Below, piece after piece: positions 1,445-5,659 of a stretch of DNA of 5,659 bases. Both the position numbers and the translations under genes were made by a program. Every line of letters begins with the position of its first letter. Positions within the stretch are counted from its first letter, which is position 1. The notes beneath the pieces were generated by a model. That model made no database searches. It saw nothing but the letters and a program-made list of their open reading frames with translations, and was not told the DNA's origin. The stretch is from positions 1 through 5,659 of the forward strand of contig JAKBSX010000235.1 of NCBI GenBank assembly GCA_021844725.1, given 5' to 3'. Source of the DNA: Actinomycetes bacterium (GTDB taxonomy: Bacteria; Actinomycetota; Acidimicrobiia; Acidimicrobiales; Acidimicrobiaceae).

Positions 1445-2572
1445 TTGTCATCTGAAAGTGCCTCAGGGTTTAATCCGCCGCCATATCCATACGATCGATT
1501 GGATTCGATTATTGAAATTGCTCAATCCTGGACGGGGGGCATGGTTGACTTGAGCGTCGGTACCCCTGTGGATGCCCCGATTGCAAAAGTTGTCGATGCG
1601 CTTTCGAGTTCAAATATGGAAAGAGGCTATCCAACCTCGCTAGGGTCTAAGCAGTTACGGGAATCCATGGCTCGTTGGTTGAATAGAAGCTTTGCAGTTA
1701 CCATTTCTGAGGCCAATATAGCGAGCTGCATAGGTACCAAAGAGTTTGTGGCTAGTGCGCCCTGGTATTTAAAGCTCCGTTACCCGGGAAAAGATACTGT
1801 ATTGTATCCTGCTGTTTCTTACCCCACCTACGCATTTGGAGCAGATTTGGCACAGTGTCGTGCGGTACCGGTCCAAATTGATGAGTCTGGTCGATTGGAG
1901 CTTGAGAGAATAGGCAAAGAAGACCTTAACCGAGCATTAATGCTGTGGTCTAATTCGCCTTCGAACCCGACTGGCAAACTGGACGATTTGGCCAAACTGT
2001 ATGAATTTGCCAATGAGACTGGAATTCCTGTGTTTTCGGATGAATGTTATAGTGAGTTCACTTGGACCCAGGACCCAGATTCAATTCTGAAATATGGGAG
2101 CAGCAACGTGGTTGCCGTGCATTCTCTATCCAAAAGATCGAACCTTGCGGGAGCAAGGGTAGGATTTTACGCTGGAGACCGCAATCTGGTTGATTATTTG
2201 GGGCTTATTAGAAAACATGCCGGAATGATGGTTCCAGGGCCCATCCAACACGCGGCTAAGTTGGCGTTTGATGACGATGATCACGTGGCCAGGCAAAGGC
2301 GCACCTATCTGAACCGCTTGGATTTCATGGTGGCGGTTCTTCGCCAATGTGGCTACAAAGTAGAAAAGCCAGATGGCGGATTTTACCTATGGTTCAGGTC
2401 TGAGTTGGAAGATGGCTTTGAGCTGGCTGCTGAGTTGGCACAAAGGTTAGGTATCTTGGTTTCTCCGGGTGAATTTTATGGTGATAAGTCGCGTCCTTAT
2501 GTTCGGATTGCGATGGTTGCTAGCATGGACAAACTTGAATTGGTGGCGGAGCGGGGGTCAAAGAAGGGTTGA
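1445..2572 (+). CDS. dapC: N-succinyldiaminopimelate aminotransferase (class I/II PLP enzyme)
   Basis: The product is a 375-aa cytoplasmic fold-type I aminotransferase, the usual length for DapC. It moves an amino group from glutamate to N-succinyl-2-amino-6-oxopimelate, giving N-succinyl-LL-diaminopimelate. Seen: DLSVGTPVD near the N-terminus (35-43), typical of actinobacterial DapC; GTKE (97-100) for cofactor phosphate; SNSPSNPTG with N174; FSDECYSEF with D199, which pairs with the PLP pyridine nitrogen; SLSKRSNLAGARVGF with K230 as the Schiff-base lysine; and R354 in YVRIAM for the substrate carboxylate. The start is TTG at 1445, with GGAG 10 nt upstream and an in-frame TAA at 1424. The stop overlaps or abuts dapD, so the two are very likely translationally linked. 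On sequence alone other class I aminotransferases are possible, but dapD and dapE directly downstream settle the role. Confidence 0.9.
   Translation: MSSESASGFNPPPYPYDRLDSIIEIAQSWTGGMVDLSVGTPVDAPIAKVVDALSSSNMERGYPTSLGSKQLRESMARWLNRSFAVTISEANIASCIGTKEFVASAPWYLKLRYPGKDTVLYPAVSYPTYAFGADLAQCRAVPVQIDESGRLELERIGKEDLNRALMLWSNSPSNPTGKLDDLAKLYEFANETGIPVFSDECYSEFTWTQDPDSILKYGSSNVVAVHSLSKRSNLAGARVGFYAGDRNLVDYLGLIRKHAGMMVPGPIQHAAKLAFDDDDHVARQRRTYLNRLDFMVAVLRQCGYKVEKPDGGFYLWFRSELEDGFELAAELAQRLGILVSPGEFYGDKSRPYVRIAMVASMDKLELVAERGSKKG
2561..2568 (+). promoter_or_regulatory. Ribosome binding site favouring the GTG start of dapD
   Basis: AAGAAGGG, inside the last dapC codons, lies 9 nt before GTG 2578 but directly touches TTG 2569. 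The spacing therefore favours the shorter dapD. Confidence 0.5.
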
Positions 2573-2577
2573 AGATA

Positions 2578-3405
2578 GTGTTGGAACTTGAAATGCAAAT
2601 CGAAGAGCTTTGGGCAGTCCGCAGTGAGCTAGATCCAGCGGATTCAAATGCCAGGGCGCTTATAAAACAAGCTATCGATCTTTTGGATAGAGGTGAGGTT
2701 CGTGTGGCTGAAATTGACCCAGCCTCGGATCAAGTGAAAGTGAACGAGTGGCTGAAGCACGCAATCTTGATGCTATTTAAATTTTCTGATATGAGAACTA
2801 TGGAACTTGAGCCGTTCGAATTCGTAGACAGGGTTCCATTGAAAAAGGATTTTATGGCTCAGGGCGTAAGGGTGGTGCCCGGCGCTTCGGTGCGATGGGG
2901 TTCTTACCTTGAGCAGGGTGTAACTTTAATGCCCAGTTATGTAAATATTGGTGCGCGGGTTGGATCAGGAACCATGGTGGACACATGGGCGACAGTAGGC
3001 TCTTGTGCTCAGATAGGTAAGCGAGTTCATCTTTCGGGTGGAGTAGGCATTGGAGGTGTCTTGGAGCCAGTCCAGGCTTCTCCGGTTGTGATAGAGGATG
3101 AGGCATTTATTGGCTCTCGTGCGATGATCACAGAAGGAGCCCGAGTTGGGGAAGGCGCAGTCGTTGCGGCGGGAGTAATTTTAAATCCTTCAATTCCGGT
3201 AATTGATTCGGAATCGGGTGAGGAAATTTCCAGAGGACATATTCCACCTTGGTCTGTGGCTATCAGCGCGACTCGGCCGAGAAAATTCAATGGTGGTGAG
3301 TTTGGACTTCCATGCGTACTTGTTATCAAACGTCTTAACGAGGGTGAGAGGCATGATAAGGCTCAGGTAAACGACTTGCTTCGTGATCACGGGATTGCGA
3401 TGTAA
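2578..3405 (+). CDS. dapD: Tetrahydrodipicolinate N-succinyltransferase, E. coli type
   Basis: This enzyme transfers succinyl from succinyl-CoA to L-tetrahydrodipicolinate, the committing step of the succinylase branch. It is a left-handed beta-helix (hexapeptide repeat) protein that acts as a trimer. The signature block is MPSYVNIGA, then GTMVDTWATVGSCAQIGK and VHLSGGVGIGGVLEP; the D of MVDTW and the E of ITEG match catalytic D141 and E189 of E. coli DapD as I recall them. Length is about 275 aa, as in E. coli, whereas actinomycete DapD is over 310 aa and different in sequence. A TTG at 2569 gives a 278-aa form overlapping the dapC stop as TTGA. I prefer GTG at 2578 because AAGAAGGG lies 9 nt upstream and the N-terminus then lines up residue for residue with E. 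coli DapD; ATG 2593 is a third option. The family call is secure, the start is not. Confidence 0.95.
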   Translation: MLELEMQIEELWAVRSELDPADSNARALIKQAIDLLDRGEVRVAEIDPASDQVKVNEWLKHAILMLFKFSDMRTMELEPFEFVDRVPLKKDFMAQGVRVVPGASVRWGSYLEQGVTLMPSYVNIGARVGSGTMVDTWATVGSCAQIGKRVHLSGGVGIGGVLEPVQASPVVIEDEAFIGSRAMITEGARVGEGAVVAAGVILNPSIPVIDSESGEEISRGHIPPWSVAISATRPRKFNGGEFGLPCVLVIKRLNEGERHDKAQVNDLLRDHGIAM

Positions 3406-3421
3406 TGTGGCTGGGTAAGTC

Positions 3422-4477
3422 ATGGATTTAGTCAAACTTTGCAGTGATCTTATTGCAATACCCTCGCCTTCTCACTCCGAGGAGAAGATTTCTAATTTTA
3501 TATTTAATCTGCTTCGGAGTTTTGAAGGATTATCAGTTGATCGCATTGGCAACAATGTAGTTGCGACTTCGCATCTGGGCCGGAGCCGGAAGGTTATATT
3601 AGCAGGACATATGGATACCGTTCCAGCCGATGGTAATGAGCTGCCCCGCATTTCTGACCGGATCATCAGCGGGCTTGGAAGTGCTGACATGAAGTCTGGT
3701 TTAGCTGTCATGATCGGACTTGCCCAGAAGGCGGCATCGCTCAAAAGCGACGTGACGTTTTTATTTTACGTGTGCGAGGAAGTTGCATCTAAATTCAGCG
3801 GGTTGGTTGAAATTGGCTCAGTTGATTCATCGATCTTGACTGCGGATGCTGCCATTTTGCTCGAGCCAACTAGCTGTAGGATCGAAGCTGGCTGCCAGGG
3901 AACTATGAGGGTTAGGATAGAAGTATTGGGACGTTCGGCCCATACTGCCCGCCCTTGGATGGGAGTCAATGCAATCCATCGCTTGGGGGACCTAATCAAG
4001 GCCGTAGCTTCATTTGAACCTCGCCAACCGGTTATAGACGGTTTGGTTTTTAGGGAATCACTTCAGGTGGTCAAGGTCGAAGGGGGCAAGTCAAACAATG
4101 TGGTGCCCGATCGTGCTTCCATAGTGGTGAATTATAGATTTGCACCAGACAGAACTCTGGTTCAAGCTGAGACATATCTAAGGGATTTGTTTGGCGAGTT
4201 TATATTTCCCGAGCATGGTGACAATTTCGAACTCATTGAAGGTGTGGAGGGGGCACTTCCGAATCTCGAACGCTTGGTAATAGAAGATCTCGCTAAGGTG
4301 TCAAACCTTCCGCCGAGAGCAAAACTTGGTTGGACCGATGTGGCTTATTTCTCCTCAAGGGGGATACCGGCTACTAATTACGGTCCTGGGGATCCATTGG
4401 TTGCACACACAAAAGACGAATATGTAAATATTGATGAAATTGAGCTTGCATTTAATCTTCTGTTGCAGATTTTATAG
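3422..4477 (+). CDS. dapE: Succinyl-diaminopimelate desuccinylase (M20 metallopeptidase family)
   Basis: DapE hydrolyses N-succinyl-LL-diaminopimelate to succinate and LL-diaminopimelate with two zinc ions in the cytoplasm. At 351 aa it fits the shorter Gram-positive/actinobacterial DapE group. Metal and catalytic residues in order: GHMDTVP with H63 and D65; GSADMK with D89, the bridging ligand; YVCEE with E119 as general base and E120 as ligand; LLEPT with E148; and VAHTKDEYV with H329. The dimerisation domain carries GRSAHTARPW with H174, the substrate-contacting histidine of M20 enzymes, and GGKSNNVVPD. ATG 3422 follows dapD by 16 nt; its Shine-Dalgarno is poor (GGGTAAG), so translational coupling is likely. 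Related M20 deacylases such as ArgE are alternatives, but the neighbours make DapE the clear choice. It ends 3 bp from the lexA stop on the other strand. Confidence 0.93.
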   Translation: MDLVKLCSDLIAIPSPSHSEEKISNFIFNLLRSFEGLSVDRIGNNVVATSHLGRSRKVILAGHMDTVPADGNELPRISDRIISGLGSADMKSGLAVMIGLAQKAASLKSDVTFLFYVCEEVASKFSGLVEIGSVDSSILTADAAILLEPTSCRIEAGCQGTMRVRIEVLGRSAHTARPWMGVNAIHRLGDLIKAVASFEPRQPVIDGLVFRESLQVVKVEGGKSNNVVPDRASIVVNYRFAPDRTLVQAETYLRDLFGEFIFPEHGDNFELIEGVEGALPNLERLVIEDLAKVSNLPPRAKLGWTDVAYFSSRGIPATNYGPGDPLVAHTKDEYVNIDEIELAFNLLLQIL

Positions 4478-4480
4478 CGG

Positions 4481-5110
4481 TTAGAGGGATCTCAGCACAT
4501 TGACGACTCTCCCGTAGATTGTTATTTCCGAAGCAGGATATATCATGGGCGAGTAATTTTCATTCGAGGGAAGCAAGGTGACGTATCTACCATTTGTCGT
4601 GACCCTCTTTATGGTTGCTTCATCATTGGGAGTTCCGACCACAGCAATTTGATTGGGTTCAACTTGCTGTTGTCGTCTCACGACAACATAGTCTCCGTCC
4701 AAAATTCCGTCCCCGGACATTGAGTCCCCTTTGACGCTAAGCATAAAGAGTTCACCTTTCCCGGTGAAGGCGCGCGGCAGTATAAATGAGTCTGTAAAGT
4801 CCTGGGACGCCAAGACTCCAGTTCCAGCTGCCACTTGTCCTATCAATGGTATATGTGCCAATTCTGAGTCACTTGAAGAATCGGACGTCTCGGCGGTGTC
4901 CCAGTTAATTGATATGCTTCGTGGTTTCGTTGGATCTTTGGTCAAATAGCCAAGCTCCTGGAGAGCCTTTAGTTGGGCATGCACCGACGATGATGACGTT
5001 AGACCAACCGCTTCGCCGATCTCACGGACCGATGGAGGGTATCCCCGCAGCCGCTGCTGGGAAACAATGAACTCCAGGATCGCTCTTCTCATTGGAGTCA
5101 GGGCTTTCAT
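4481..5110 (-). CDS. lexA: LexA, SOS-response repressor and self-cleaving protease
   Basis: LexA represses DNA-damage genes; RecA on single-stranded DNA triggers its self-cleavage. Counting from ATG 5110 (209 aa): a winged helix with GYPPSVREIGEAVGLTSSSS (about 23-42) and the wing GYLTKDPTKPRSI; a Ser/Asp-rich linker (73-83); the cleavage site in QVAAGTG at A95-G96; catalytic S130 in VKGDSMSGDG; and catalytic K168 in ATIKRV. All needed residues are present. ATG 5110 gives MKALT, the same first five residues as E. coli LexA, with AGGA 6 nt upstream. GTG 5125 (behind GGGAGG, 4-nt gap) and TTG 5137 are possible longer starts. Two LexA boxes lie in the upstream region, so it should repress itself and the divergent gene. 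The dapE stop is only 3 bp from its own, leaving no room for a terminator between them. Confidence 0.96.
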   Translation of the reverse strand: MKALTPMRRAILEFIVSQQRLRGYPPSVREIGEAVGLTSSSSVHAQLKALQELGYLTKDPTKPRSISINWDTAETSDSSSDSELAHIPLIGQVAAGTGVLASQDFTDSFILPRAFTGKGELFMLSVKGDSMSGDGILDGDYVVVRRQQQVEPNQIAVVGTPNDEATIKRVTTNGRYVTLLPSNENYSPMIYPASEITIYGRVVNVLRSL

Positions 5111-5182
5111 TCTTGGTCCTGTCACTTGGCCTCCCAAATTGTCACACCCACAATAGATAATGGTGCAGTTCCATTAGAGGAA

Positions 5183-5210
5183 ATAATACCATCGATTTTA
5201 AATAAGGCAA
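5183..5210 (-). promoter_or_regulatory. lexA promoter
   Basis: On the minus strand TTGCCT (5210-5205) and TATTAT (5188-5183) form -35 and -10 elements with a 16-bp spacer. The -35 overlaps the end of LexA box 1, so bound LexA would block polymerase. The predicted leader is about 65 nt before ATG 5110. Confidence 0.55.
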
Positions 5211-5221
5211 ACAAATGTTCG
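5208..5221. promoter_or_regulatory. LexA box 1 (one mismatch), at the lexA promoter
   Basis: CAAACAAATGTTCG differs at one base from the symmetric CGAAC-N4-GTTCG operator (A in place of G at 5209). It overlaps the -35 of lexA. The imperfect half suggests weaker binding than box 2, compatible with lexA being partly expressed when uninduced. Confidence 0.75.
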
Positions 5222-5226
5222 AAATA

Positions 5227-5258
5227 TTGATACAAACGAACACATGTTCGGTTAGAAT
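5227..5258 (+). promoter_or_regulatory. SOS-controlled promoter of the small membrane protein gene
   Basis: TAGAAT (5253-5258) is a good -10 directly after LexA box 2. The best upstream hexamer is TTGATA (5227-5232), but the 20-bp spacer is long, so the -35 is uncertain. LexA on box 2 would cover the space between the elements. Confidence 0.45.
5237..5250. promoter_or_regulatory. LexA box 2 (perfect), at the promoter of the small membrane protein gene
   Basis: CGAACACATGTTCG fully matches the Gram-positive SOS consensus CGAACRNRYGTTYG. It lies in the spacer just before the candidate -10 TAGAAT of the rightward gene. Its centre is 29 bp from that of box 1. Confidence 0.9.
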
Positions 5259-5282
5259 ATATCTGGATCAAGCAATATTGGA

Positions 5283-5289
5283 GAGGAGG
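5283..5289 (+). promoter_or_regulatory. Strong ribosome binding site of the small membrane protein gene
   Basis: GAGGAGG lies 7 nt before ATG 5297. It is the best Shine-Dalgarno in the window and strongly supports this short ORF as a real gene. Confidence 0.8.
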
Positions 5290-5296
5290 AACACAA

Positions 5297-5578
5297 ATGG
5301 CAGCAGTGATACGCGATAGGAACGTAAGCCTGGGATCCCTTGAGCGATTTGAAGTAATCCAAGGTCAGATCGGTCAAAGACGTAAAATGATTAGGGAACG
5401 GAAGCGTTTAGAGACGATTTTGCGACTAGTGATTGAGTTCGGATTTATTTTAATTCTGGTTCTAAGTGCCTATTCACTTGGTTTTACTAATGCTTCTGCG
5501 AAACAGACGGTGTCTCCTCGGCCAGCTAATGCGAGTTCGCTTTACGTCTCTCCGTCTACAAGCAGTGTCAGCAATTAG
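5297..5578 (+). CDS. Small single-pass membrane protein, SOS-controlled; possible cell-division inhibitor
   Basis: I do not recognise the 93-aa sequence. Residues 1-40 are hydrophilic and rich in Arg/Lys (a dense stretch at 28-37), residues 41-63 form one hydrophobic helix with an embedded Glu (E47), and residues 64-93 are a Ser/Thr/Pro/Ala-rich tail. The basic N-side predicts an inside N-terminus and an outside tail; there is no clear signal-peptidase or lipobox site. It has a strong ribosome binding site and a perfect LexA box at its promoter, divergent from lexA. In other Gram-positives this position holds SOS division inhibitors (YneA, ChiZ/Rv2719c, DivS), several with one membrane helix and an outer LysM domain. 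Topology and context agree, but no LysM is present here or in the bases after the stop. The gene is well supported; a role in halting division under DNA damage is inferred from context. Confidence 0.8.
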   Translation: MAAVIRDRNVSLGSLERFEVIQGQIGQRRKMIRERKRLETILRLVIEFGFILILVLSAYSLGFTNASAKQTVSPRPANASSLYVSPSTSSVSN

Positions 5579-5596
5579 ACTGCGTTCTTATTGTTA

Positions 5597-5626
5597 TTGG
5601 TTGTCATTTGGGTAACTTAATATGAT
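5597..5626 (+). promoter_or_regulatory. Candidate promoter for a gene starting at the window edge
   Basis: TTGGTT (5597-5602), an 18-bp spacer and TATGAT (5621-5626) form a plausible promoter, ending about 28 bp before ATG 5654. TTGTCA (5601-5606) is a better -35 but is only 14 bp from that -10. The bases 5579-5596 after the small gene contain no clear terminator hairpin. Confidence 0.35.
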
Positions 5627-5653
5627 TTACTATGCTCGGTAGCTGGAGTGGTC

Positions 5654-5659
5654 ATGAAT
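5654..5659 (+). CDS. Possible start of a gene running off the right edge
   Basis: Only two codons (ATG AAT) are visible, preceded by GGAG (5645-5648) at a 5-nt spacing. The product cannot be told. It does not begin with the Met-x-Cys-Pro of NrdR, which is often found near lexA in actinobacteria. Confidence 0.35.

Follow-up and report, generated by a model that had tools for sequence, protein, structure and literature searches.

A lexA-divergent membrane protein gene without a LysM domain in Acidimicrobiia

Small SOS division inhibitors encoded divergently from lexA are a kind of gene that is already known, and experiments dispute whether these proteins require a LysM domain: YneA is inactive without it, the N-terminus and helix of ChiZ are reported to be enough, and SosA never had one. 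A 5,659-nt stretch of DNA from a member of the Acidimicrobiia (hereafter the window) has at this place a gene for a 93-aa membrane protein without LysM, and such a LysM-less variant in Acidimicrobiia is the new part. This locus raises the question whether the protein represents a new, unrelated family, is the remnant of an inhibitor that has lost its activity, or still stops division.

The 93-aa gene, lexA and the region between them

The gene lies at positions 5297–5578 on the forward strand and lexA at 4481–5125 on the reverse strand. A first-pass annotation of this DNA had described a single-helix protein of YneA/ChiZ-like size and topology divergent from lexA, and this description holds: the protein contains a single hydrophobic stretch (Kyte–Doolittle peak 2.26) that corresponds to a helix at about residues 44–62, preceded by an N-terminus (about residues 1–43) and followed by a conserved juxtamembrane segment (about residues 63–72) and a short variable tail. 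Residues 1–44 include 11 K/R and have a net charge of +6, and from these basic residues preceding the helix we predict a protein that crosses the membrane once, with a cytoplasmic N-terminus and the juxtamembrane segment and tail outside. The earlier suggestion that the basic region is a working part stands insofar as extracts of PMC7355643 credit the N-terminus plus helix of ChiZ with activity; the region itself is not special, as relatives have 7–12 K/R in it.

The absence of LysM that had been claimed was borne out by Pfam and by a frame scan of the lexA upstream region. The protein has no match in Pfam at E ≤ 1 and none in NCBIfam, including the YneA model NF010723, and only weak matches in PHROGs (E 0.18). 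The window yielded nothing at gathering scores in Rfam, and viral contigs scanned with the alignment of the 93-aa protein and with the two-box pattern described below gave no match. A frameshifted LysM domain was rejected, because the three divergent-strand frames from the lexA upstream region to the window end contain no LysM match. An assembly artefact is also unlikely, the LysM-less form being common to four protein clusters, one of which is present in 20 contigs.

The lexA product matches TIGR00498 (E 8e-55, above the curated cut-off) as well as the Pfam models LexA_DNA_bind and Peptidase_S24. The listed start, TTG at 5137, adds four residues that are absent from homologues, and because aligned homologues mostly open with MTGPR, GTG at 5125 is the most likely start. 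Genes for dapC-like aminotransferase, dapD-like and dapE-like proteins occupy positions 1445–4477 on the forward strand, oriented towards lexA, and many Acidimicrobiia loci likewise have dap genes in this order on the far side of lexA.

Two LexA boxes, 29 bp apart, lie between lexA and the 93-aa gene. The perfect box CGAACACATGTTCG at 5237–5250 is the only site in the window that matches all 14 bases exactly, against 0.0045 such sites expected from base composition, and the second box CAAACAAATGTTCG at 5208–5221, on the lexA side, has one half-site base changed. The shorter core GAAC(4)GTTC has two exact copies in the window, the other one inside dapE at 4152–4163. Directly after the perfect box, TAGAAT at 5253–5258 on the forward strand is a putative −10-like promoter element; a simple sigma-70 scan of this strand reported no promoter for the 93-aa gene, so this assignment rests on conservation, the TAxxAT columns being invariant across the window and its eight nearest relatives. 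The perfect box at the promoter and LexA control had both been proposed, and the box anatomy supports them, giving the gene the promoter arrangement that, judged by its sequence, lexA-divergent SOS division inhibitors would be expected to have. The putative ribosome-binding site GGAGAGGAGGAA (approximately 5279–5290, forward strand) has a predicted duplex energy with the anti-SD of −12.0, and it is, as had been stated, the strongest among the six window genes tested (the other five have −10.2, −9.3, −6.4, −4.9, and −4.3).

Homology to LysM-bearing neighbours of lexA

A search of genome contigs with a single LexA sequence found no relative, and a search with a LexA alignment found 80 loci. We next searched the family of one locus-bearing genome, in which 38 of 42 genomes encode LexA at E ≤ 1e-20. 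The nearest genomes found number eight, with LexA 72–76% identical to that of the window, and in them the check for homologues next to lexA that the first-pass annotation had proposed came out positive. All eight divergent genes encode a membrane helix followed by LysM, with nrdR next downstream, and both LexA boxes with their 29-bp spacing align in the window and these relatives; among the eight, L091 differs by a single base in its second box. In the window the gap after the 93-aa gene (5579–5659, forward strand) probably leads into nrdR. The similarity of the last 50 bases to the relatives is weak, and between 5 and 120 of 500 shuffles equal it, according to which relative is compared; because the relatives have nrdR at this place, it probably begins just past the window end. 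The gene for ChiZ (Rv2719c) presumably lies beside lexA and nrdR in Mycobacterium.

At the protein level the first search returned only three close homologues, giving four LysM-less clusters (the window protein and P0002–P0004) of 90–93 aa, the latter three sharing 87%, 69%, and 66% identity with the window protein. P0004 probably lies beside lexA as well, as the contig statistics common to it and the LexA protein P0006 suggest. So few homologues, together with the lack of Pfam and NCBIfam matches, could point to a new, unrelated family that has replaced the LysM gene beside lexA, and a new family of damage-induced inhibitor is what the first-pass annotation had put forward. This proposal did not survive a profile–profile comparison of the four LysM-less with the eight LysM-bearing proteins, which match over residues 1–69 of both at 97.0% (E 1.2e-10). 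As a control, eleven other lexA-divergent helix-plus-LysM proteins gave 2.1% (E 0.023); between these eleven and the eight LysM-bearing proteins there is a match in LysM, at 95.8%. The LysM-less and LysM-bearing sets have in common the start x-A-V/I/L and the helix end L-x-[AG]-Y-S-x-G, and in the joint alignment of 12 members the positions A3, L42, G49, L56, Y59, S60, and G62 are invariant. Pfam LysM is found in eight of these 12 and in none of the window protein and P0002–P0004. An unrelated origin is largely refuted by the profile match and its control, and we regard it as very improbable.

A final protein search with the joint alignment collected 18 proteins, four of them LysM-less. The 13 longer proteins (135–180 aa) all have, by eye, the GDS-x-W start of LysM; Pfam placed three of four of them above the LysM cut-off and P0125 below it. 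The search also brought in one 94-aa LysM protein (E 0.005). The LysM-bearing relatives score 16–23 bits against NF010723, the cut-off of which is 60.

Because the window protein is homologous over residues 1–69 to LysM-bearing proteins encoded at the same place, we read its gene as a known gene minus LysM, and loss of the domain within this lexA-divergent family is very probable. By homology of N-terminus and helix, the protein would belong to the Acidimicrobiia lexA-divergent family represented by L085–L092. It resembles the members with LysM (P0125–P0137 and L085–L092) in place, LexA boxes, start region, and helix end, and differs from them in lacking LysM and in having 93 aa where they have 130–137 aa when counted from the start used in the alignment (their database entries have other starts and 135–180 aa). 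Small lexA-divergent proteins that match no family can thus be assigned through their place and profile comparison.

In the lexA tree, 24 other family rows are separated from the window, P0005, and P0006 with support of 100/100. P0005 and P0007 have no neighbour assignment. Mapping of LysM loss onto the tree involves two LysM-less rows only, with P0005, which carries no label, between them, and the two changes that it needs are for that reason uninformative about loss.

Constraint and probable loss of LysM beside lexA

If the inhibitory activity had gone together with LysM, the protein might be a decayed or silenced brake, perhaps still localised to the septum, a relic or on its way out. This is the main rival to continued activity, and the conservation of the LysM-less proteins bears on it. 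The four clusters, 65–87% identical in pairs, retain length, helix, and juxtamembrane segment while the tail varies, and this is no pattern of general decay; the window retains intact promoter boxes and a strong ribosome-binding site. Across the six LysM-less pairs, identity is 84–95% in the helix, 73–91% in the juxtamembrane segment, and 32–74% in the tail. A Ser/Thr/Pro-rich tail had been singled out earlier as a distinguishing feature, and no part of the protein varies more across the four clusters. Pairs that carry LysM are 17–75% identical in the corresponding outer linker (75% in the closest pair only) and 43–83% in the LysM part. These differences between segments, drawn from small numbers, suggest a shift of constraint towards the membrane edge in the LysM-less proteins. 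Clustering of invariant residues on one face of the helix was not established (p 0.071 with all six residues, p 0.007 only with one left out; conservation moment p 0.18).

We also surveyed 198 lexA upstream regions, reduced to 194 by removal of four duplicates, using a LysM profile built from two seed sequences in three iterations. LysM is present in 168 of them, 13 were flagged as having a helix but no LysM, seven are short, and six have none. Since the best LexA matches were taken first, followed by 60 further regions (two rows with short upstream sequence were skipped), and since 27 loci (L053 and L055–L080) are mostly from Firmicutes, the LysM share is no census. Among the 13 flagged cases, for which we chose the ORF start codons ourselves, six are clear besides the window (L009, L138, L021, L051, L186, and L203), apparently representing five lineages with L009 and L138 as one. 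Four are not true cases (L011 has LysM beyond the cut, L057 has a degenerate LysM, and L071 and L078 are other genes), and L177 and L198 are unsure. nrdR follows the gene directly in four of the six clear cases (L009, L138, L021, and L203).

Some of these lineages lend weight to decay. The L009/L138 pair has a dN of 0.57 and a dS of 0.68 (two LysM-bearing pairs have a dN of 0.11 with a dS of 0.46, and a dN of 0.16 with a dS of 1.31), a high dN/dS and thus a weak constraint that counts against a working protein in that lineage. L051 and L046 are a close pair of lexA loci that share their promoter. LysM is intact in L046 and cut short in L051, and comparison of the two suggests that a stop and a rearrangement removed the LysM region of L051, possibly recently. 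Extracts of PMC13396833 further report that YneA without LysM is inactive though localised. With the retained features of the four clusters and the intact promoter set against these points, we judge decay of the window gene unlikely.

A predicted brake on septal wall synthesis

The reading that we favour, and consider rather likely, is that the 93-aa protein is a still active, LexA-repressed, LysM-independent division inhibitor, because it has what ChiZ reportedly needs and a conserved outer edge like that of SosA. Its gene would have originated from a YneA/ChiZ-type protein minus the LysM domain. In the undamaged cell LexA would sit on both boxes and block the promoter of the 93-aa gene, and upon DNA damage RecA filaments would bring about self-cleavage of LexA and switch the gene on, the strong ribosome-binding site giving a burst of protein. 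The protein would insert so that the basic N-terminus faces the cytoplasm and the tail points outward. Its helix may dock on FtsW, the synthase of septal peptidoglycan, in the neighbourhood of FtsI/FtsQ, and the conserved end of the helix together with the outer juxtamembrane segment would then impede wall synthesis at the septum until the cell clears the protein.

Comparison with known systems, as described in extracts of the papers cited, shows where this proposal has precedent. YneA of B. subtilis is likewise lexA-divergent and under SOS control, with one helix and the C-terminus outside according to the literature. Its helix is reported to bind TM7 of FtsW, which is enough for localisation, and without LysM it localises yet does not block division, the block requiring LysM binding to peptidoglycan; the window protein, in contrast, has neither LysM nor a match to the NCBIfam YneA model (PMC13396833). 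ChiZ, from the same phylum, also has one helix and a basic N-terminus, and its N-terminus and helix are described as sufficient for filamentation (PMC7355643, citing others) and its LysM as seemingly unnecessary (PMC3989709, citing others). Unlike the window protein, ChiZ has LysM, and we liken the two by description, not by sequence. SosA of Staphylococcus (77 aa) is lexA-divergent, lacks LysM, and has a conserved segment just outside the helix, the membrane-proximal outer residues of which are reported to be essential, and a small truncation at the far end is reported to make it stronger (PMC6851548). SosA is from another phylum, and its likeness to the window protein is one of design. By description, DivS of Corynebacterium glutamicum is similar in being encoded near lexA, SOS-induced, and without LysM (PMC6851548, PMC3989709), as is SidA of Caulobacter in that this small membrane protein is SOS-induced and inhibits late division proteins (PMC6851548).

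That the YneA helix alone reportedly binds FtsW without blocking (PMC13396833), and that conservation of the LysM-less proteins is highest in the helix, would also suit a repurposed septal protein, SOS-induced and attached to the divisome through its helix, that serves as a marker, competitor, or antagonist of another inhibitor and is no brake itself. The lineage has no other known inhibitor; this reading needs an extra assumption, and we consider it quite improbable.

The LysM-less loci invite a wider and tentative reading, which we hold to be possible but somewhat doubtful: Acidimicrobiia may have lost LysM repeatedly (in the window clade, L009/L138, L021, L051, L186, and L203), giving rise to convergent SosA-like brakes in which the helix and its outer edge, and not LysM, would be the ancestral working core. 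Septal synthase would then be inhibited without peptidoglycan binding, with a short outer tail left each time. Searches of the open-licence literature turned up no description of LysM loss in a lexA-divergent family of Acidimicrobiia. A gene that occurs behind one and the same promoter in both a LysM-bearing and a LysM-less form offers a natural pair for asking which part stops the septal wall synthase.

A gene for a TnpB RNA-guided nuclease (NF040570, E 9e-63), cut by the window edge, lies at positions 3–1223 on the reverse strand and adjoins the dap genes. In the class of genome G002, 63 of 296 genomes have no LexA match at E ≤ 1e-30; among 20 such genomes listed, 17 are about 0.9–1.1 Mb, and LexA may therefore be missing in small genomes.
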